Positions 54,837 to 64,000 of a stretch of 64,000 bases of DNA are shown in pieces. The stretch spans positions 62,001 through 126,000 of the forward strand of contig NZ_NPFY01000008.1 in NCBI RefSeq assembly GCF_002259415.1. Direction: 5' to 3'. The notes under the pieces are model-generated. The model was not told the origin of the DNA. It ran no database searches and saw only the letters and a list, made by a program, of their open reading frames with translations. The DNA is from Rhodococcus sp. 14-2470-1b. Lineage in GTDB: Bacteria > Actinomycetota > Actinomycetes > Mycobacteriales > Mycobacteriaceae. The translations under genes and the position numbers were made by a program. Within the stretch, counting starts at the first letter, position 1. Every line of letters starts with the position of its first letter.

Positions 54837-55754
54837 TCAGGCCAGCCAGTGCAGTAGGTGTTCGACGATGGACTTCCCCGCACTACGTTGAGCAGTGTCG
54901 TTCGCTGTCGAGGCCATGACAGGGAAGTCGTGATCGACTCCAGGGACGATCTGTTGTGTCACATCGGCCCCCGCAGCGTGCGCCTTGACGACGAAACTCT
55001 CGGCTTGCGACCGCAGTGAGTCGTCCTCGGCGGCCAGGACGAGCAGAGGCGGAAGCGCAGCGAGCTCTTCGGCGTCCAGCAGAAGCGGCGAGGCGAGAGT
55101 GTCCGATCGGCTCGAAGCGTCGGCGAAGTAACTCACGTTGATCGTTCGGATCAATGCTTCGCTGACGAAATGCTTCCCGGGTAGAGAGGCGAAGTACTCC
55201 GGTGGAACAGTGGAGTCCACGAGTGGGACTGTCAGGACCGCTGTACGCACGGTCGGTTTGCCTGCTCGACGGAGGAGTTCGATCACCCCGAGCGAGAGGT
55301 TCGCGCCGGCGCTTCCGCCGCCGATGGACATGCGCTCGGTGTCCCACCCCATGCGACTGCCCTCGCGACGTACCCATTCGAACACATCGAAGCATTCTTC
55401 GTGAGCACGGGGGAACCGCTGTCGAGGACTTGTCGTGTAGTCGATGTTGACGACCACGGCGCCCACGTCACCTGCGACGGCTCGGACGATCTGGTCGTCC
55501 TGACGAGGGTTGCCGATCAGGAATGCGCCACCGTGGATGTTGATGTGCACGGGAGGCGCAACTGTGTTCGCGGACAAGGGGGCATCCGACGCAGGCCGGG
55601 TGACGAAACAGCGAATCTCGCCGTGACGCGTCGGCACCATCAGTTCTTCCGGCTTGCCCACCGGGCGAGTGGTCAGATCGAGCTTGGGCGCTTTGATCAC
55701 ACGGGTGACGAACTTCGACAGCACCACAGCGCGAATCTGTGCAGTGAGGTCCAT
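54837..55754 (-). CDS. alpha/beta hydrolase, hormone-sensitive-lipase family
   Basis: A 305-residue esterase. The HSL oxyanion motif is His74-Gly-Gly-Ala77, and the nucleophile Ser148 is in Gly-Gly-Gly-Ser-Ala-Gly. The acid lies in Ala-Glu-Asp-Asp-Ser-Leu-Arg near 254 and the His in Gly-Val-Asp-His-Asp-Phe-Pro near 283. It is the last gene of the nine-gene catabolic operon, beginning two bases after the SMP-30 stop. It could release an acid or alcohol from an ester substrate of the pathway. Substrate unknown. Confidence 0.87.
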   Translation of the reverse strand: MDLTAQIRAVVLSKFVTRVIKAPKLDLTTRPVGKPEELMVPTRHGEIRCFVTRPASDAPLSANTVAPPVHINIHGGAFLIGNPRQDDQIVRAVAGDVGAVVVNIDYTTSPRQRFPRAHEECFDVFEWVRREGSRMGWDTERMSIGGGSAGANLSLGVIELLRRAGKPTVRTAVLTVPLVDSTVPPEYFASLPGKHFVSEALIRTINVSYFADASSRSDTLASPLLLDAEELAALPPLLVLAAEDDSLRSQAESFVVKAHAAGADVTQQIVPGVDHDFPVMASTANDTAQRSAGKSIVEHLLHWLA

Positions 55755-55756
55755 TC

Positions 55757-56824
55757 TTACAGTTCCCTTCCTGTCGTCGGTTGCTTTGTCGAACTCCAAT
55801 GCGCCAGCGGTGCACCGGCGATCGGCGATCTGAACGTGGGCAACGACGTTCCGTTGAGTGAGCCGATGTACACGGTACGCAGGTCGGGCCCGCCGAAGGT
55901 GATGCTTGCCATGCGCGGGGCCAGACCGTCACCGGGCTTGGCGGCGAGTGTGGTCCCGATCCCGTTGTCTTCGAGATCGTCCGACGCGTTGTCGCCGTCC
56001 TGCCAGATGGTGACAACGCGCCCCTGAGGGGTGATTGCGACGAGACGGTCGGCGCCGATCAGTGTCGTCCACAGATTTCCGTCTGCGTCGAACGCGAATC
56101 CGTCCGGACCACCGCCGAGTCGATCGGGTCCGTAGACCTCACGGTCGGTCAGTGTCGCATCGGGCCCGACCCGATAGCGGGTCATGTGATCGGCGCCCGT
56201 TTCTGCGACGAACAACTCGGTACCGTCGGGGGAGAACCGCATCTCGTTGGTCCCACACAGACCGTCGGCGACCACCCGGGCCGATCCTGGTCGACCCGGT
56301 TTCCAGTCGTCGATCACCGCGATGTATCCGTCCGACGCGAGAGGGGCCGGTCGCCGACTCCAGGTGTCCGTCGACGAGGTCACCGAGAACCACAGCCGCC
56401 CCTCGGAATCGAACGCCGGAAAGTTGGCCTTCCCGATGGGAGTCGTGCGCCCGTCCGGCCAGCGGACCGAGTCGGCGATGAGCGTGTAATGGCCGTCCCG
56501 CGTGAGGTGTTCGATCACGTTGGTCCCGAAGTTGGCGATCACGAAATTTCCGTCGGGGTCGAAACACAACCCGTTCGGCAGGGAAAAGCCCTGATTTCCG
56601 TCGATGTTCGGGTTCACCTCCGGCGCGAACGGTCCGCCGCCGTCGAGGGGGCCGATGAGTTCTTGACGGCCGTCGGCGTCGATGTGCAGTACGCCGCCCG
56701 ACAGGTCCGCAATCCATAGATCCCCGGACGGTTCGGCGAGTACGCATTCCGGTCGGGACAGGCCCGATCCGGTCAAGGTGATGTCGGCCGGATCGAGTGT
56801 CCAGTCGTCCAGCGAGACGCTCAT
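55757..56824 (-). CDS. SMP-30/gluconolactonase family lactonase
   Basis: A 355-residue six-bladed propeller hydrolase. Metal ligands fit the family: Glu in Arg-Pro-Glu-Cys-Val near 24, Asn in Gly-Thr-Asn-Glu-Met near 192 and Asp in Gly-Gly-Pro-Asp-Gly-Phe near 246, with a divalent cation opening a lactone ring. Leu-Pro-Asn-Gly-Leu near 95 and Ser-Pro-Asp-Gly-Thr-Glu-Leu near 199 mark two blades. ATG 56824 overlaps the stop of the upstream hydrolase (ATGA). In the operon it would open a lactone formed after ring cleavage or dehydrogenation; this is inference. Confidence 0.87.
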   Translation of the reverse strand: MSVSLDDWTLDPADITLTGSGLSRPECVLAEPSGDLWIADLSGGVLHIDADGRQELIGPLDGGGPFAPEVNPNIDGNQGFSLPNGLCFDPDGNFVIANFGTNVIEHLTRDGHYTLIADSVRWPDGRTTPIGKANFPAFDSEGRLWFSVTSSTDTWSRRPAPLASDGYIAVIDDWKPGRPGSARVVADGLCGTNEMRFSPDGTELFVAETGADHMTRYRVGPDATLTDREVYGPDRLGGGPDGFAFDADGNLWTTLIGADRLVAITPQGRVVTIWQDGDNASDDLEDNGIGTTLAAKPGDGLAPRMASITFGGPDLRTVYIGSLNGTSLPTFRSPIAGAPLAHWSSTKQPTTGREL

Positions 56825-58002
56825 GACTTGTCCACCGCGGTGAACGTCTCGTCGATCCAGTCGGCGACGAACGACGACGCGAGTGGGAGATGGTCGAGGC
56901 TGACGTGCTCGGCACCGCCCTCCTCGGCAGTGAAGACCCGTAGTTCGCGCTTGGGGCTGTTGATTGCCTGCTCGTACGAGCGGTGCGCATACCGCAGCGG
57001 AATCTGGCGATCGTTCTCGCCGTGAGTGATCAGGAACGGAACGGTGATCTTCTCCACGACACCGTCGAGGTTGATCTGGTCGGCGAACTCGATGAAGGTG
57101 TCGAGATCGTCGTGTCCCCACACCCACAGGACATGCTCCCAGTAGTGCGGAACCGGCCGCTCGCCTTCGCGCTCGAGCCTGCTTCGTTGCACAGCGCCCC
57201 AGTCGTGGTTCGCTCCCCAGGCGACGACGAGCGCCAACCGCTTCTCGAATGCCGCCGCACGGGGGGCGTAGTAACCACCGAGCGACCATCCGACGAGACC
57301 GATCCGGTCGACGTCCACGTCGTCGCGTTCTTCGAGCCAGTCGACGCAGGCACTGGCGAAGACTTCACTGTCGGGACGCGCCACCAGTCCCTGCAGCCGT
57401 AGTGCTTCACCCGTCCCCGGTGTGTCGACCATGAGCGTGGAAATACCCCGCGCGGCCAGTTCATGGCAGAAGCCCGAGGTGTACTGATGCTCTTTGGTCG
57501 AGTCCAATCCGTTCCACTGGATGACCACGGGCGCGGGCGAGCCGTCGGCTCGTACGGCTTTGGTGAAGTACGCGGGCAGAAACGCGCCCGGCGCCGCATC
57601 GTCGGCGGTGTAGGGGATCTCGACGCGGGTGGTGGCCGGATCGATCAACCGCTGAGCCTTGTCGGTCAGGTCCAGGATTCGTTCGTAGGTCGGAATGCGG
57701 TCGGGATTGGAGTTCGACAGCATGCGCTCGGCGACCGAGAGGTAGCTGCTGGACCGGAAATACAACTGCCCGGCGGTTCGAAGCCGGCCGGCGGCTTCGG
57801 CGGCGTCCGCATCGGTGGTCAGCTGGTCGACGAGGGTGGACCAGGCTCGCAGGAAATCCTCGGTGCCTGCGTCCTCACCTCGCGTTGCGGCGTCACGGAT
57901 GGGGCGGCACGCACGATCGACCTCGTCGATCGTTCCGCCACTGTTGAGGGCGGCGACGACGGAGAGATTCCACACATAATTTCCGGGGAAGTATTCGAAC
58001 AC
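56821..58002 (-). CDS. alpha/beta hydrolase resembling 2,6-dihydroxypseudooxynicotine hydrolase (C-C hydrolase type)
   Basis: A 393-residue two-domain hydrolase. A helical N-terminal cap (about 1-125) precedes the alpha/beta core with nucleophile Ser240 in Gly-Trp-Ser-Leu-Gly-Gly, the acid in His-Gly-Glu-Asn-Asp near 328 and His in Gly-Gly-Ala-Glu-His near 365. Cap size and motif context match 2,6-dihydroxypseudooxynicotine hydrolase of Arthrobacter and related FrsA-like enzymes, which break a carbon-carbon bond next to a ketone. It is co-translated with the SMP-30 gene. In this operon it could split the ring-fission product or a side chain. Confidence 0.82.
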   Translation of the reverse strand: MFEYFPGNYVWNLSVVAALNSGGTIDEVDRACRPIRDAATRGEDAGTEDFLRAWSTLVDQLTTDADAAEAAGRLRTAGQLYFRSSSYLSVAERMLSNSNPDRIPTYERILDLTDKAQRLIDPATTRVEIPYTADDAAPGAFLPAYFTKAVRADGSPAPVVIQWNGLDSTKEHQYTSGFCHELAARGISTLMVDTPGTGEALRLQGLVARPDSEVFASACVDWLEERDDVDVDRIGLVGWSLGGYYAPRAAAFEKRLALVVAWGANHDWGAVQRSRLEREGERPVPHYWEHVLWVWGHDDLDTFIEFADQINLDGVVEKITVPFLITHGENDRQIPLRYAHRSYEQAINSPKRELRVFTAEEGGAEHVSLDHLPLASSFVADWIDETFTAVDKS

Positions 58003-58038
58003 GTACTTGTCCTTCGCTATTGGTTACTTCTGGTGCGC

Positions 58039-59433
58039 TCAGGCGCCGATCCAGGTGGTACGGATGTTGGTGAATTCGCGTATGCCTTCTTCGGAGAGTT
58101 CTCGACCGTGGCCGCTCCGTCTGGTTCCGCCGAAGGGCAAGCGAGCGTCCGAGGCCACAACGGCGTTGACGAACAATGCGCCGGAGGTGATTCGGCGTCC
58201 GACCGCCAGGGCTCGTTCGAGGTCGGCAGACCACACGCTCGCACCGAGTCCGAAGGCGCTGTCGTCCGCCAGACGTGCGGCGTGGTCGTCGTCGACGGCA
58301 CGAATCACGGCTGCGACCGGACCGAAGGTCTCCTCCCTGAACGCCGGCATGTCGGTGGTGACGTCGGCGAGGACGGTCGGCTCGAAGAATGCTCCTGGGC
58401 CGGGGCGACGTGCACCGCCGGTGAGGATCTTTGCGCCACCGGAGACCGAGCGTTCGACCAGTCCTTCGAGCGCCGTGACCTGATCGAGTCGCGCCAACGG
58501 TCCGACCTGGGTCTGCGGGTCGGCGGGATCTCCTACCCGGAGCGCTGCGACGGCGTCGGTGAAACGACTCGTGAATTCCTCGGCGATCGACCCGGCGACG
58601 ATGAACCGCTTTGCGGCAAGGCAACTCTGGCCGCTGTTGAGGAACCGAGACCGAACCGCCCCCTCCACTGCTCGCTCCACATCAGCGTCGTCGAGTACCA
58701 CGAACGGATCCGATCCGCCCAGTTCGAGAACGGTCTTCTTCAGTGCGGACCCGGCCGCGGTCGCGACCGCGATCCCGGCTCGTTCGCTACCGGTCAGGGT
58801 GACCGCGGCGACGTGGGGGTCGTTGATCAGTGCGGTGGTCACCGCACCCACCTGCGCCTCGTCGACGAGCAAGGTGGTGAACAGCGATCGGGGTGCGTTC
58901 ACCGATTCCGCAGCGTCGTGGAAGATTTCTTCTATTGCCAGCGCGCATCCGGTGACGGACGGGGCATGTTTGAGGAGCGCTGCGTTGCCTGCCGCGATTG
59001 CCGGTGCGCCGAAGCGGACGACCTGCCAGAACGGGAAGTTCCACGGCATGACCGCCAACACGACACCGAGAGGTTCGTAGCTGACCCAGCTCTGCGCTGC
59101 CGGCGAATCCACGATGCGGTCGGCGAGGAAGTCGGACGCATTCTCCGCGTAGAAGCGCGCGGTCCACGCGCACTTGTCGACCTCGGCCAGTGCCTCGGCT
59201 GTGGGTTTTCCCATCTCGGAGGTAGCCAGGGCAGCCAAGGCCTCGCGGCGCTCGGTCAGGCGATCTGCAACGGCGACGAGCATCGCGGTGCGCTGCTCCC
59301 GATCACTGGTGCGCCAAGCCTGGAAGGCCTCGTGCGCAGCGTCGACGCTCCGCTGGATGTCGTTGTCGCTGTGGGTGTTCCAGGTACCCAGGACATCACC
59401 GGTCGCTGGATCGATACTGGTCAGAGTTCCCAT
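58039..59433 (-). CDS. aldehyde dehydrogenase, succinate-semialdehyde dehydrogenase-like
   Basis: A 464-residue NAD(P)-dependent dehydrogenase. The base Glu237 is in Leu-Glu-Leu-Gly-Gly and the nucleophile Cys271 in Asn-Ser-Gly-Gln-Ser-Cys; Pro-Trp-Asn-Phe-Pro near 130-134 and the C-terminal Phe-Gly-Gly-Thr-Arg-Arg-Ser-Gly are standard. Overall it resembles NAD-type succinate-semialdehyde dehydrogenases (GabD/Sad), but the same fold oxidises hydroxymuconic semialdehyde in meta-cleavage pathways. Position between the SDR and the C-C hydrolase genes supports a semialdehyde intermediate. It starts one base after the SDR stop. Confidence 0.87.
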   Translation of the reverse strand: MGTLTSIDPATGDVLGTWNTHSDNDIQRSVDAAHEAFQAWRTSDREQRTAMLVAVADRLTERREALAALATSEMGKPTAEALAEVDKCAWTARFYAENASDFLADRIVDSPAAQSWVSYEPLGVVLAVMPWNFPFWQVVRFGAPAIAAGNAALLKHAPSVTGCALAIEEIFHDAAESVNAPRSLFTTLLVDEAQVGAVTTALINDPHVAAVTLTGSERAGIAVATAAGSALKKTVLELGGSDPFVVLDDADVERAVEGAVRSRFLNSGQSCLAAKRFIVAGSIAEEFTSRFTDAVAALRVGDPADPQTQVGPLARLDQVTALEGLVERSVSGGAKILTGGARRPGPGAFFEPTVLADVTTDMPAFREETFGPVAAVIRAVDDDHAARLADDSAFGLGASVWSADLERALAVGRRITSGALFVNAVVASDARLPFGGTRRSGHGRELSEEGIREFTNIRTTWIGA

Positions 59434-59434
59434 G

Positions 59435-60298
59435 TCACTTAAATCCTTCGGTGGGAGTCGGCTGGGACATGACTGCGTCGGCTGGGGGCATGACTGCGTC
59501 GGCTGGGGGCATGACTGCGTCGGAGAGGAACTTCACTCCGCCTTGGCTGGAGAATCCGCCGTCCACGGCGATCTCGGCACCGGAGATGTAGGTCGATTCG
59601 TCGCTCAACAGAAAGACGATGAGGTTCGCCATGTCGTCCACACTGCCGACTTTCCCCAGGGGCGTGCTGTCGATGTTGGCCTGGCGGAAGGTAGCGGGCG
59701 CGTTCGCGACCATCGGGGTTTCGATGTAACCGGGGTGAACGAGGTTGACGCGAATACCACGTGGCCCGAGTTCGAGACTTGCCACTTTCGACAGCCCCCG
59801 TACTGCCCATTTCGACGCCGTGTACGCGACTGTGTAATGGGGTGTGACAGCCGCGACGCTTCCGATCGTGACGATGGACGCCCCGGACTTCATCAGCGGC
59901 GCCATTGTCTGGATACCGAGAAGTGCGCCGGTGGTATTGACCCGGAACATGCGTTCCCAGTCCGCCACTTCGACGTCCATCAAGCGTGCGCGGTGGGTGA
60001 GTCCGGCGTTGTTGACCAATCCGTGAACCTCGCCGTACGTCTGGCTCAATTCTGCGCCGAGCGCCGCCCATGCCGCGGGATCCCCGACGTCGAGCTGGCG
60101 GTAGACGATGGCGCCGCCGAGGTCACCGAACTGCTGCGGATCGAGCTCCTCGGGGCGGGTGATGTCGGTGGCGACGACTCTCGCTCCCTGTGCTGCGAGT
60201 GCAAGCGCCTCCGCTGCGCCCTGCCCGCGGGCAGCACCGGTCACCACGACGACTTTGCCTGCCATACGTCCTGCCGCACCAGGTGTCGCGACGTTCAT
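59435..60298 (-). CDS. SDR-family NAD(P)-dependent oxidoreductase with repetitive C-terminal tail
   Basis: A 287-residue short-chain dehydrogenase. The cofactor motif is Val-Thr-Gly-Ala-Ala-Arg-Gly-Gln-Gly near 20, followed by Asn-Asn-Ala-Gly near 96 and catalytic Tyr-Thr-Ala-Ser-Lys near 160. The normal fold ends near residue 262; beyond it is a tail with Asp-Ala-Val-Met-Pro-Pro-Ala repeated, encoded by a 21-bp tandem repeat (59468-59523). ATG 60298 overlaps the FAH stop (ATGA); an internal ATG at 60265 is less likely. It would oxidise an alcohol or diol intermediate of the operon's pathway. Confidence 0.88.
   Translation of the reverse strand: MNVATPGAAGRMAGKVVVVTGAARGQGAAEALALAAQGARVVATDITRPEELDPQQFGDLGGAIVYRQLDVGDPAAWAALGAELSQTYGEVHGLVNNAGLTHRARLMDVEVADWERMFRVNTTGALLGIQTMAPLMKSGASIVTIGSVAAVTPHYTVAYTASKWAVRGLSKVASLELGPRGIRVNLVHPGYIETPMVANAPATFRQANIDSTPLGKVGSVDDMANLIVFLLSDESTYISGAEIAVDGGFSSQGGVKFLSDAVMPPADAVMPPADAVMSQPTPTEGFK
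59468..59523. repeat. 21-bp tandem repeat, about 2.7 copies, at SDR 3' end
   Basis: Units of the form CATGACTGCGTCGGCTGGGGG at 59468 and 59489 and a partial copy at 59510 encode Asp-Ala-Val-Met-Pro-Pro-Ala repeats in the C-terminal tail of the SDR. The repeat is in frame, and the two full copies are identical. Confidence 0.92.
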
Positions 60299-61269
60299 GC
60301 TCGGGCCTCCCTTGCTGCCTTGAGTGCGTCGAGGTCGGCGGCACGGGTAACCAGCTGCCGATCCGGGCGAGCTGCTACCACCTCGTTCGAGACGGTGCCG
60401 AGGATGTCGACCGTCATGGTTACGACGTCCCCGGTGCGCAGGGGCGGAGGATCCTGAACACCGCTACGCCCCCAGAACTCCGACAGTGCGCCGCGCCCAC
60501 AGGTTCCCGATGCGACGAGGTCCCCTGCGCGTACCCATGCGGCACGAGATGCGTGCGCTATGAGCTCGGGAAAGGACCACCCCATGTGGGCAAGAGAATC
60601 CTCGCCGATGACCGCGTCGTTGACCTTCACCTGCATGCGCAGATCGTGTCGATCACCGATGCGGAACCCCTCGATCTCGTCGGGCGTGACCAGCCACGGC
60701 CCGATCGTCGTCGCGAAATCCTTGCCCTTGGCAGGGCCGAGACCGACTGCCATCTCCCGACGTTGGATATCGCGAGCCGACCAATCGTTGACCACGAGAT
60801 AGCCGGCGATGCACTCTCGTGCCTCGTCGGCGGTGAGGTCACGTCCGTCCCGCCCGATCACCACGCCGACTTCGAGTTCGAAGTCGAGACTGTCGGTGTC
60901 GGACGGGGGGACCACCGGCTCGTCGGCGCCGATCATGGCGTGGGGGTTGCCGAACAGAAATGTCGGTGCCTGTGCCCACGCGTTCATCGCAGCGGCCGGG
61001 TCGGGGCTCATCGACGACGCGCCTTGGACGTGTTCCTCGAAGGCCACGAAATCACGGAAGCTCCCGGGGTGAATCGGGGGGAGCAGTTCCACGTCCGTCA
61101 GCGCGACGCGGGGCGCATCGGCACCCGGAACGGCGCGTCGGACTGCGACGTCGAGGAGGTCTGTGCCGAGGGGGAACAACTCGAGGTGGTCGGGGGTCTC
61201 ACCGTCCGGTGAGACCCCCACGATTGCCACTCGTGTTCCGGACTCGTGTCGTGCACGGGCGTACTTCAT
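60295..61269 (-). CDS. fumarylacetoacetate hydrolase family protein
   Basis: A 324-residue metal-dependent enzyme of the FAH superfamily. Acidic ligands are visible in Asp-Phe-Glu-Leu-Glu-Val-Gly near 134 and Val-Val-Asn-Asp-Trp-Ser-Ala-Arg near 162; Ser-Gly-Thr-Cys-Gly-Arg-Gly near 253 corresponds to the Gly-Thr-Gly loop. Family members hydrolyse C-C bonds in fumarylpyruvate or acylpyruvates, or hydrate and decarboxylate meta-cleavage products. Together with the extradiol dioxygenase this supports a ring-fission pathway. It overlaps the SDR gene by four bases. Confidence 0.88.
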   Translation of the reverse strand: MKYARARHESGTRVAIVGVSPDGETPDHLELFPLGTDLLDVAVRRAVPGADAPRVALTDVELLPPIHPGSFRDFVAFEEHVQGASSMSPDPAAAMNAWAQAPTFLFGNPHAMIGADEPVVPPSDTDSLDFELEVGVVIGRDGRDLTADEARECIAGYLVVNDWSARDIQRREMAVGLGPAKGKDFATTIGPWLVTPDEIEGFRIGDRHDLRMQVKVNDAVIGEDSLAHMGWSFPELIAHASRAAWVRAGDLVASGTCGRGALSEFWGRSGVQDPPPLRTGDVVTMTVDILGTVSNEVVAARPDRQLVTRAADLDALKAAREARA

Positions 61270-61354
61270 GACCGTTCTACCTTCGTTGGGCGCACTACCG
61301 CAGGACGCGACGTGATGTCGACGGTGCGCTGGGGAGGATGGGCGTCGTCTCGGG

Positions 61355-61648
61355 TCAGACGTCGAGGACCGTGCTGAACGCGCGCTCGCGGTTGGCCAGC
61401 GCCGGGATGGCCTTGCCGAGTGCGTACGTCTCGAAGTGCGGGTACGTACCGTGAGCCTTGAATGCGGCCTCGTCGTCGTACACCTCGAAAATGCGGAAGA
61501 TCGAGGGCTGCTCGGGATCCTGGTGGACGATGTACGTCTGGCAACCCGGCTCGTTGCGGGAGGCCGGAGCGAGCTCGACGAGTGCTTCGTGCACGGTGCT
61601 CTCCTGGCCGGGCTGAGCGGTCCAGGTTGCGGAGCAGACGAACGACAT
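61355..61648 (-). CDS. antibiotic biosynthesis monooxygenase (ABM) domain protein, quinol monooxygenase-like
   Basis: A 97-residue ferredoxin-like dimer protein. The ABM pattern is seen in Glu-Ala-Leu-Val-Glu-Leu-Ala-Pro-Ala-Ser-Arg-Asn-Glu-Pro-Gly-Cys near 21, Tyr-Ile-Val-His-Gln-Asp-Pro near 39 and Phe-Glu-Val-Tyr-Asp-Asp-Glu-Ala-Ala-Phe near 53, as in YgiN/quinol monooxygenases. Such proteins oxidise quinols without cofactor or help dissociate the product. It lies between the FAD monooxygenase and FAH genes, with an 85-bp gap downstream. A likely role is oxidation of a hydroquinone made by the FAD enzyme; this is inference. Confidence 0.85.
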   Translation of the reverse strand: MSFVCSATWTAQPGQESTVHEALVELAPASRNEPGCQTYIVHQDPEQPSIFRIFEVYDDEAAFKAHGTYPHFETYALGKAIPALANRERAFSTVLDV

Positions 61649-61689
61649 GATGAATCTCTTTCTGTTGAAGGGTGTCGAGCGAAATTGAG

Positions 61690-62826
61690 TCAGAACGGTT
61701 GTGCGAGAATGCCCATCGACGCGCCCATGAGCGCTGCCGGGTCAGCTCCGGGGGTGTCCGGTTCGAGTTCCCACCGGGCGAGTTGTACCGAGTTCTCCAC
61801 CACCATCTCGGCCCTGGCTTGTCGGCGTTGCATGAACAAGTCCAGGAGGGTCTCCACGTCGTGGTCCTGGCCGAGGAGCTCACCGAGCACGGCTCCGTCC
61901 TCGGTCGCCATGGCTGCACCTTGTGCGAGCATCGGGGGGCACGCATGTGCGGCGTCGCCGATGAGCAGGACGCGGCCGCGGTGCCACGGTCCGTCGATGC
62001 GCAACGCTTCGAGGGTGCGGTAGTCGACCAGCGTGTCGGGGCCCATGTCCGCACGGATGTCGTCCCACAGTCCGTGGTAACCCTCGGTCCGTTCGGACAT
62101 GATCTCGGGCAACGAGCCGGTGCCGAAATCGCTCAGCGGCAGATCGTCGTCGATGATGTAGGCGTACATGCGCTCCGGGCTGGTCGGGGTGAAACCGGCC
62201 TTGTACCGCGGGCCGCCGTAGAAGATCTGCGAGCACGTCATGTCCGCGGGCCGTGGACCTTCCATCCTGAAGATGGACATCCCGACCGACTGCGGTTGCG
62301 CATCGATGCCGATCGAACGGCGTACGGTGGAGCGGATCCCGTCGGCCCCGACGACGAGATCGAAGGTGTCTTCGGAACCGTCCGAGAACCTCACGGTGAC
62401 ACCGTCACTCGTGCTGTCGTCGTCGATCCCTTGGACGCACAGATTCATTCGAACGTCCACCCCGGATGCATCGACGGCGGTGCTGAGCACCCGCTGCAGA
62501 TGGAACCGCATCGATCCCATGCCGGGAGGCAAGCCGGGGCCGCCCATCGGCGGCATGGGCATGTCGTTGATCAGGTTCCCGTCGGCGGTACGAAACTGAA
62601 CGTGATCCCACGGATAGCCTGCCGCGAGGATGTCGTCGACTACTCCTACCCGGTCGAGCGCCATGAGCGCATTGCCCTGCAGGGTGATGCCGTGGCCGAG
62701 AGTAGGCCAGGCGCTCTGGCGTTCGGCCAGGACGACATCGATGCCATTGCGACGCATGGCAAGTGCTGCGACGGAGCCGGCGGTACCGCCTCCGACGACG
62801 AGCACACGATTGATGGATCGGGACAT
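61690..62826 (-). CDS. FAD-dependent aromatic monooxygenase
   Basis: A 378-residue flavoprotein of the PHBH-like group A hydroxylases. The dinucleotide motif is Val-Gly-Gly-Gly-Thr-Ala-Gly-Ser near 11-18, the second NAD(P)H/FAD motif is Gly-Ala-Asp-Gly-Ile-Arg-Ser near 165, and Gly-Asp-Ala-Ala-His-Ala-Cys-Pro-Pro lies near 290. These enzymes hydroxylate phenols or hydroxypyridines. AGGAG seven bases before ATG 62826 fixes the start. Being next to an extradiol dioxygenase gene, it likely makes the catechol-like diol that the dioxygenase opens. Whether the ring is benzene or pyridine is not decided by sequence. Confidence 0.88.
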   Translation of the reverse strand: MSRSINRVLVVGGGTAGSVAALAMRRNGIDVVLAERQSAWPTLGHGITLQGNALMALDRVGVVDDILAAGYPWDHVQFRTADGNLINDMPMPPMGGPGLPPGMGSMRFHLQRVLSTAVDASGVDVRMNLCVQGIDDDSTSDGVTVRFSDGSEDTFDLVVGADGIRSTVRRSIGIDAQPQSVGMSIFRMEGPRPADMTCSQIFYGGPRYKAGFTPTSPERMYAYIIDDDLPLSDFGTGSLPEIMSERTEGYHGLWDDIRADMGPDTLVDYRTLEALRIDGPWHRGRVLLIGDAAHACPPMLAQGAAMATEDGAVLGELLGQDHDVETLLDLFMQRRQARAEMVVENSVQLARWELEPDTPGADPAALMGASMGILAQPF

Positions 62827-62973
62827 GGGTTTTCTCCTGGGAAGGACACGCGGACGCGCATCGTTGCGTGGCTGCCGGGCCCACGCGTCGTGTTTGCGGG
62901 CGGGTGTCCAGCACGTGAGATTCACTGACGATAGGAAGAACTCGACACAGGGTGTCGGTCGACGCTCGGAAGA

Positions 62974-63909
62974 TCAGACCGGCGGCGCGACGAAGAGTGG
63001 GTCAGGGGTGTTGAACAGCTTCTTGGCGATCAGCTCGCCCATTTCGTCCGCAGTGCCCCACTGGTCTTGATTCTCGGGCTGGCTGATGTCGTAGACATGT
63101 GGATGCCAGGTGTCCTCGTCCAAAGTCTCGACGCCGTAGGTGTATTCGTGACCGTTGCCGTGGGGATCCAAGAAGTACATGAACACGTTGTCGCCGGCCA
63201 TGTGGCGTCCCGGTCCCCACACCTTCTCCGTCCCGGCCCTCATTGCGCGGCCCGATCCGCGCATCCACTCTTCCAGTCCGCGCATCTCGAACGACGCGTG
63301 GTGCAGAGATACGTGCGGCGCTCGCGTGATGGCCAAGTTGTGGTGGTACGGGTTGCACCGCATGAAATACATCATCTCGCCGGCCTGAGGGTGAGCGAGC
63401 GTGTCCGACAGGTCGAAACCGAGTTGCTGCTCGTAGAAGCCACGGGTGCGCAGCGGGTCGGGCGAATTGATCACCGCGTGGGCCAGTCGCACCGGGATGG
63501 CTTCTCGCTCTTCGACCTTCCGGTGCCGGCGCGCAGCGACGTCGGAGGACACCTCGATCACGCGACCGTCGATGTCGAAGAATCGGAAGCCGTAACCGCC
63601 TCCTGGCGTCTGCATCGCCTGCGGTTCGGACACGATGCGGATGCCGTTGGCGATGAGCTGCTCGGCGAGCTTGTCGACGTCGGCCTCGTTGGCGGCACCG
63701 AATGCCAGCAGATCCAGTCGCTTCTCGGTGTCCTTGCGCAGACGGACGACATACTGCTCGGGCGAACCTTCTGCGGCGAAGAACGAGATACCCGTGTCCG
63801 ACTCGGTCTGAGTCAAGCCCCAGGTGGTGCGATAGAACTCGACCTGATCCTCGTAGTCGGGGACCGCGAAGTCGACGTGACGCAAGTGCGTGATCAACCG
63901 GTTGCTCAT
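62974..63909 (-). CDS. extradiol ring-cleavage dioxygenase (VOC family, type I)
   Basis: A 311-residue two-module dioxygenase. The second VOC module holds the iron ligands His144 (Leu-Ala-His-Ala-Val), His204 (Leu-His-His-Ala-Ser) and Glu255 (Gly-His-Glu-Tyr-Thr). Asn-Pro-Tyr-His-His near 186-190 matches the conserved acid-base His of BphC-type enzymes. It should open a diol ring next to the hydroxyls using Fe(II) and O2. GGAGAAG lies before ATG 63909. It is the first gene of the minus-strand operon visible here; a promoter or regulator may lie beyond the right edge. The 147-bp gap to the monooxygenase gene holds no obvious gene. Confidence 0.9.
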   Translation of the reverse strand: MSNRLITHLRHVDFAVPDYEDQVEFYRTTWGLTQTESDTGISFFAAEGSPEQYVVRLRKDTEKRLDLLAFGAANEADVDKLAEQLIANGIRIVSEPQAMQTPGGGYGFRFFDIDGRVIEVSSDVAARRHRKVEEREAIPVRLAHAVINSPDPLRTRGFYEQQLGFDLSDTLAHPQAGEMMYFMRCNPYHHNLAITRAPHVSLHHASFEMRGLEEWMRGSGRAMRAGTEKVWGPGRHMAGDNVFMYFLDPHGNGHEYTYGVETLDEDTWHPHVYDISQPENQDQWGTADEMGELIAKKLFNTPDPLFVAPPV

Positions 63910-64000
63910 GAAACTTCTCCTATTTGGACGGGCTTCTGTCGACGCCTCGTTCGATGGCCGGTAGGTCGCTTGGTGAGACACAGCCTGTGGTGTGGGGCGA
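63910..64000. other. upstream edge of the ring-cleavage operon
   Basis: Only 91 bases remain before the window ends. They include the ribosome site of the dioxygenase gene (CTTCTCC on the plus strand at 63914-63920). I see no clear promoter, so the operon may extend further right. Confidence 0.4.

Follow-up and report, generated by a model that had tools for sequence, protein, structure and literature searches.

What does a nine-gene ring-cleavage operon degrade when no characterised cluster with its whole gene order can be found? The question is raised by the minus strand at 54837..63909 of a 64,000-nucleotide stretch of Rhodococcus sp. 14-2470-1b (the window; G000:C8:62001-126000, in a genome of 5.9 Mb). 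An earlier note on this DNA had described there an operon for ring hydroxylation, extradiol cleavage and C-C hydrolysis that matched none of the standard catechol, protocatechuate, gentisate, homogentisate or phenylacetate clusters and whose substrate was unassigned. Our comparisons uphold the description. Judging from sequence relationships, we consider it reasonably probable that the operon encodes a separate version, found in actinobacteria, of the pathway for cleaving the A-ring of flavonoids that the fde and ifc genes of Proteobacteria encode. The features are listed in transcription order after the promoter region, with the identity of each protein to its counterpart in a second genome, from another genus of the family (G336, stretch L101).

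63910..64000, no strand: portion, inside the window, of the divergent promoter region that LysR and EDO share; the region runs on as far as the LysR start, C8:126082.
62974..63909, minus: extradiol dioxygenase (EDO), two-domain vicinal-oxygen-chelate type, 311 aa; PF00903; PDB 3b59 (E 2.7e-66), aligned to XylE (1mpy); 94% to L101.
61690..62826, minus: group A FAD aromatic hydroxylase (FMO), 378 aa, start ATG 62826; PF01494, NCBIfam PRK06847; 88% to L101.
61355..61648, minus: ABM, dimeric alpha+beta barrel protein of the quinol monooxygenase/isomerase type, 97 aa; PF03992; PDB 1x7v (E 7.9e-09); 96% to L101.
60295..61269, minus: FAH-family hydrolase/tautomerase, 324 aa; PF01557 (E 2.8e-53); 90% to L101.
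59435..60298, minus: SDR oxidoreductase, 287 aa, overlapping FAH by four bases; PF13561; 85% to L101.
58039..59433, minus: aldehyde dehydrogenase (ALDH), succinate-semialdehyde-dehydrogenase-like, 464 aa; PF00171; PRK09406 at 521.6 bits, under the cut-off of 730; 88% to L101.
56821..58002, minus: C-C hydrolase, alpha/beta hydrolase of the 2,6-dihydroxypseudooxynicotine hydrolase/Ayg1 type, 393 aa, GTG start; PDB 8qd7 (E 3.5e-23), 2jbw (E 2e-20); 94% to L101.
55757..56824, minus: SMP-30/gluconolactonase-family lactonase, 355 aa; PF08450; 49% to the SMP-30 protein inside the fde-type operon of Azospirillum B510; 86% to L101.
54837..55754, minus: HSL-type alpha/beta esterase, 305 aa; PF07859; N-terminus common to L101; 74% to L101.

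All nine frames are open and free of internal stops, and the Pfam families assigned to the nine proteins agree with the enzyme names given earlier. The gaps, in bases, are 147 between EDO and FMO, 41 to ABM, 85 to FAH, -4 to SDR, 1 to ALDH, 36 to the C-C hydrolase, -4 to SMP-30 and 2 to HSL, so that the tight packing noted before is seen at four junctions (-4, +1, -4 and +2). The SMP-30 frame ends at 55757 and the HSL gene most likely starts at ATG 55754. In the alignment with XylE, H144, H204 and E255 of the EDO fall on the Fe-ligand residues of XylE, consistent with the full ligand set claimed for this enzyme. Likewise, Ser240, Asp331 and His366 of the C-C hydrolase sit in the expected motifs. 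Among the nine genes, Pfam found no Rieske oxygenase, no ferredoxin and no pentadienoate aldolase, as the earlier note had stated, and no 2-hydroxypentadienoate hydratase; both bph/xyl-type and nicotine-type pathways fit the locus more poorly than a flavonoid A-ring-cleavage variant. At the 3' end of the SDR gene (about 59455-59522) a 21-base sequence is repeated, with two copies exact and a third partial; it codes for a PPADAVM repeat that is not in L101.

Concerning the relatives of these enzymes, plasmid records with the C-C hydrolase led us to proteobacterial operons carrying the hydrolase, a dioxygenase, a Rieske ferredoxin, FMO, cyclase, cupin and FAH genes in varying sets. Named genomes were then scanned with eight FdeC-like dioxygenases as queries and the best 80 of 501 loci were retained, three of them from Herbaspirillum. 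In Herbaspirillum sp. AP02, a LysR gene is followed across the divergent region by genes for a Phenol_MetA_deg protein, C-C hydrolase, EDO, Rieske protein, FMO, major facilitator superfamily (MFS) transporter, cyclase, cupin, FAH and epimerase. Strain ASV7 has LysR and the hydrolase-to-epimerase genes, and the third Herbaspirillum contig ends after FMO. We take the AP02 locus to be the fde operon. It agrees with the published FdeC dioxygenase, FdeE with its Rieske protein FdeD, and FdeA; any gene letter beyond FdeA, FdeC, FdeD, FdeE and FdeR would follow from gene order. The window FMO is 37% identical to the FdeE-like hydroxylase of AP02 and 38% to that of Burkholderia anthina, the C-C hydrolase 51% and 53%, and the FAH-family enzyme 32% and 35%, respectively. 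A full-length match of the C-C hydrolase was present in all 12 loci checked, L201 excepted, and the gene lay within 9 kb of the dioxygenase in 67 of 69 loci selected by FdeC-like EDOs (those among the best 80 that had an EDO2 match and a length of 17 kb or more). Genes of the window that AP02 does not carry also occur in such operons: SMP-30 in those of Azospirillum, Telluria and Caenimonas, and ABM in that of Massilia. The comparison with characterised enzymes proposed earlier has thus given fde-type homologues for FMO and the C-C hydrolase, a relation that the note, which did not name fde or ifc, had not foreseen.

The window FMO scores 388.4 bits on PRK06847 (cut-off 372), a threshold also passed by the FMOs of AP02, Burkholderia, a soybean-nodule Bradyrhizobium plasmid, Sphingomonas R1 and a second EDO cluster of the window genome on contig C29, and failed by those of Corynebacterium occultum and of stretch L107. 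Only two of the 24 PRK06847 matches in the window genome pass, both within EDO clusters; the next best scores 143 bits. In 27 further genomes there were 20 passes; set against the EDO places by eye, 17 lay within 3 kb of this EDO, one within 9 kb and two elsewhere, and a pass was present in 16 of 17 EDO-positive genomes and in none of 10 EDO-negative ones. The PRK06847 family is a selective marker. The FMO of the Bradyrhizobium plasmid is 36% identical to that of AP02, similar to the published distance between IfcA and FdeE (36.3%; 65.8% for IfcB and FdeC; PMC11069340).

We then examined how far the gene set extends. Among 249 genomes sampled from the order, the window genome counted, 45 had an EDO match (E <= 1e-60), and the nearest named matches among plasmids came from Streptomyces, Nonomuraea, Corynebacterium and Rhodococcus. 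There were 52 EDO places; 40 were fetched as 20-kb stretches (in three of these the EDO is less than 50% identical to any reference), the two of the window genome were fetched separately, and 10 were left out without a rule. Within 9 kb of the EDO in the 40 EDO-selected loci we found LysR in 36, FAH in 34, FMO in 32, a cyclase in 29, the C-C hydrolase in 28, SDR in 24 and an amidohydrolase in 8. FMO, C-C hydrolase, FAH and LysR occurred jointly in 23. ALDH (4), ABM (2), HSL (1) and SMP-30 (0) were scarce, and the window's set therefore adds uncommon genes to a core that is widely shared. The 23 joint occurrences, together with the fde-type homology of FMO and the C-C hydrolase, narrow the class of substrate that had been left unassigned. 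From these relationships flavonoids are most likely; resorcinols, acylphloroglucinols, chromones and xanthones are also candidates. In the same loci the C-C hydrolase and the amidohydrolase tended to exclude each other (27 against 7, both in 1, neither in 5; p 2.9e-4, uncorrected for kinship); a corresponding figure from 67 loci is biased, as it includes loci chosen by the hydrolase. The C-C hydrolase and FMO were not significantly associated (both in 24, p 0.21), because both are common.

The limits of the unit became clear from related genomes. A search of 301 genomes of the same family with the C-C hydrolase (E <= 1e-60) gave 16 positive genomes. In G336, LysR and all nine genes are present in an order identical to that of the window, which provides the recurrence of the gene order that had been sought. 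LysR itself is 84% identical, and the genes flanking the cluster are unlike those of the window. Because LysR and the nine genes are kept while the flanks differ, we regard these ten genes as the unit; the repeated order, at 74-96% identity and with other flanks, also indicates that the nine-gene set is more than chance. The regulator, for which an extension to the right of position 64000 had been suggested, is this divergent LysR gene, 172 bases separating its start codon from that of the EDO. It probably responds to the substrate. In the intergenic region 113 of 168 aligned bases are identical between the window locus and L101, and both contain an ATAG-N7-CTAT dyad. As a general operator this dyad was rejected, being present in only 3 of 57 intergenic regions (L003, L101 and L039). 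The EDO-FMO gap of 147 bases (146 in L101) contains a terminator-like hairpin, and no sigma-70-like promoter was found; the region holds five such hairpins, against 4.5 +/- 2.1 in shuffles.

Adjoining LysR on the minus strand, to the right of the window (L003, 12.0-18.9 kb), are genes named from their translations as 3-hydroxyacyl-CoA dehydrogenase, MaoC, quinone oxidoreductase, CaiB, AMP ligase, acyl-CoA dehydrogenase and enoyl-CoA hydratase. These were rejected as members of the unit since the neighbours of LysR in L101 are other genes; they could act on a leftover aromatic acid.

In G501, which belongs to the window's genus, EDO, C-C hydrolase, ABM, FAH, SDR, ALDH and SMP-30 are grouped in a different order with a different FMO, which at 118 bits falls short of the PRK06847 cut-off, and an HSL-type gene (28%) lies on the opposite strand. 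The lower enzymes therefore stay together while the hydroxylase changes. A tentative extension, less probable than not, is that actinobacteria share a lower module of these seven genes, coupled to exchangeable hydroxylases (of PRK06847 type in both the window and L101, a different FMO in L107), in which SMP-30 would open a heterocyclic lactone where proteobacteria use a cupin, and that this module would serve to degrade plant phenolics of a class for which the open-access literature searched gave no pathway from actinobacteria.

The second cluster of the window genome (C29; L004 = G000:C29:33000-52000, 4.2-12.3 kb) consists of SDR, FAH1, FMO, amidohydrolase, EDO, FAH2, cyclase and LysR. It resembles the window cluster in EDO (63%), FMO (46%), FAH (46%) and LysR (49%), and differs in that the amidohydrolase replaces the C-C hydrolase, a cyclase is present and LysR is convergent; no ABM, ALDH, SMP-30 or HSL gene was found in the C29 stretch. 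Comparison by eye placed MarR, NADP-reductase-like and esterase-like genes beside both this cluster (L004, 13.4-15.8 kb) and the window-type cluster of G336 (L101, 0.5-3.4 kb), and one insertion site may be common to the two different EDO clusters. A third cluster type, in C. occultum pCOCCU (L036, 9.8-19.7 kb) and a Rhodococcus koreensis plasmid (L079), has a long MhpA-like FMO, an EDO of the window subfamily, FAH, a cupin and acetoacetate-CoA ligase; that of C. occultum additionally has genes for an ornithine-cyclodeaminase-like protein, a DapA-like protein and an aldehyde dehydrogenase, and these three are met together again beside FdeC-like EDOs. On the Rhodococcus qingshengii J1-2 plasmid (L082, 11977-14061), a gene annotated as acetoacetate-CoA ligase opens in frame with an EDO-family dioxygenase (78% of the EDO, 57% identity), an apparent fusion.

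Taking the assigned families as a guide, a route can be proposed. FMO would hydroxylate a resorcinol- or phloroglucinol-type ring beside an existing hydroxyl, and the vicinal diol so formed would be where EDO opens the ring. A retro-Claisen cut by the C-C hydrolase would then part the opened chain from the ring that remains, freeing a short oxo acid, and the FAH-family enzyme may hydrolyse or tautomerise a diketo or oxo acid. SMP-30 and HSL could open a lactone or ester left from the heterocycle, replacing the cupin and cyclase of fde. In ifc the heterocycle ends as a hydroxypyranone that is attacked by the cupin IfcD (PMC11069340), and the lactonase and the esterase are candidates for this step. 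SDR and ALDH would oxidise an alcohol and an aldehyde, and the ABM protein may act as an isomerase or monooxygenase helper.

The same enzymes can be read in other ways. In a meta pathway of the orcinol/alkylresorcinol type, FMO would yield a trihydroxyarene, EDO a 2,4,6-trioxo acid, and the C-C hydrolase with FAH as acylpyruvase the acids, acetate and pyruvate; the substrate would be a monocyclic resorcinol or acylphloroglucinol, with the lactonase and esterase acting upstream on esters or depsides. The enzyme classes agree with the classical orcinol scheme, and the C-C hydrolase matches 2,6-dihydroxypseudooxynicotine hydrolase, which strips an acyl chain off a dihydroxylated ring. However, the nearest homologues of the hydrolase and hydroxylase in a known setting belong to fde-type operons, in a compared set that contained no characterised orcinol clusters, and we consider this route rather unlikely.

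That match also suggests a hydroxypyridine/nicotine-type pathway, with a hydroxylase like MHPCO or 6-hydroxynicotinate 3-monooxygenase; both enzymes, together with salicylate hydroxylase, stand near the top of the list of solved FMO relatives. These relatives are distant, at 83 bits for FMO and 76 for the hydrolase (2jbw) by phmmer, as opposed to BLAST scores of 215 and 393 bits against fde-type B. anthina proteins (two programs, only roughly comparable), and Pfam found neither an amidase nor a molybdenum hydroxylase among the nine genes. We regard this pathway as highly improbable. Detoxification of a naphthoquinone- or anthraquinone-like compound, by the ABM protein as quinol monooxygenase and a retro-Claisen hydrolase of the Ayg1/AntI type, would explain the presence of ABM, and Ayg1-type and AntI chains are among the solved matches of the hydrolase. 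On the other hand, ABM occurred in only two of the 40 EDO-selected loci, and the family is functionally broad, with LsrG among the solved matches of the protein; this explanation is very unlikely.

Several observations weigh against a flavonoid A-ring-cleavage variant. The known systems were compared through stand-ins, AP02 for Herbaspirillum seropedicae SmR1 and the soybean Bradyrhizobium plasmid for Variovorax sp. V35. The window EDO is not of the FdeC/IfcB type: it shares only 30% identity with the FdeC-like AP02 enzyme and 30% with the EDO of B. anthina, against 62-63% with its own subfamily. In an FMO tree (55 rows, quick method, root unsettled, two outgroup rows duplicated by the set rows L107 and L118), the window and L101 form a deep pair of their own outside the main actinobacterial and FdeE-like clades; their substrate may therefore differ. 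In the isoflavone study, Variovorax V35 is reported to degrade daidzein unimpaired after its DHPON-like hydrolase gene has been deleted (PMC11069340). C-glycoside deglycosidase genes (PF19906) are absent from the window genome, and of 52 EDO-positive genomes a single one, G182, has such a gene in the neighbourhood of the EDO (at about 15 kb; contig breaks limit this count). A mutual replacement of cupin and SMP-30 is suggestive only and not significant: the two never occur together, with 6 cupin and 3 SMP-30 genes at EDO1-type loci (n=67) and 44 and 3 at EDO2-type loci (n=77; Fisher p 1 and 0.075). A DapA-type aldolase as an alternative to the C-C hydrolase at EDO2 places found no support (of 74 places, 9 had both genes, 62 had the hydrolase without DapA, 1 had DapA without the hydrolase and 2 lacked both; p 0.36). 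Finally, the window lacks the Rieske carrier, cyclase, cupin and epimerase of fde, as well as its MFS and porin genes.

As a clue to the substrate, the C-glycoside deglycosidase was also set aside. It adjoins the cluster in Novosphingobium P6W, and the link is weak in actinobacteria; its presence in 11 of 72 actinobacterial genomes (11 of 52 EDO-positive, 0 of 20 EDO-negative) reflects kinship, as all 20 negatives come from the window's family, whose EDO-positive genomes have none either. The juglone pathway literature gave nothing useful.

How, then, does a flavonoid-type reading of the window stand beside the systems already described? With more distant pathways it shares single enzymes: 2,6-dihydroxypseudooxynicotine hydrolase (2jbw) and the fungal Ayg1-type hydrolases (8qd7, 8qd1) have the family and Ser-Asp-His motifs of the window C-C hydrolase, but they are distant (59-85 bits) and belong to other pathways. 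In fde, FdeE with its Rieske carrier FdeD hydroxylates naringenin at C8 (PMC8552027), FdeE accepts flavanones, flavones, isoflavones and flavonols (PMC11303751), and FdeR is a naringenin- and pinocembrin-responsive activator (PMC6548992). With this naringenin-degrading operon of SmR1, viewed through AP02, the window has in common the divergent LysR, the PRK06847-type FMO, an extradiol dioxygenase, the C-C hydrolase and an FAH-family enzyme, whereas ABM, SDR, ALDH, SMP-30 and HSL are found in the window only. Sphingomonad operons that are otherwise fde-like bear an EDO nearer to the window subfamily (that of Sphingomonas R1 is 40% identical to the window EDO and 29% to the AP02 one). The isoflavone cluster of Variovorax sp. 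V35, known here from its published description (PMC11069340), comprises IfcA, IfcB, two cupins and a DHPON-like hydrolase gene. It shares with the window an FMO followed by a glyoxalase-type dioxygenase and an alpha/beta hydrolase of the DHPON-like type, and differs in its two cupins and its FdeC-like IfcB.

That study reports IfcA homologues solely from Proteobacteria, genetically defined flavonoid A-ring cleavage was likewise confined to Proteobacteria in the literature we covered, and a search of open-access literature at the level of listings brought up no account of an fde-like pathway in actinobacteria. What the window suggests is a parallel version in actinobacteria with an assembly of its own, and the core of that version is found again in many genomes of the order. 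It also yields a short list of substrates, and its marker hydroxylase lends itself to direct assay. The operon stands outside fde proper, since it lacks parts that define that system; by its predicted working, it is probably of the fde/ifc kind.

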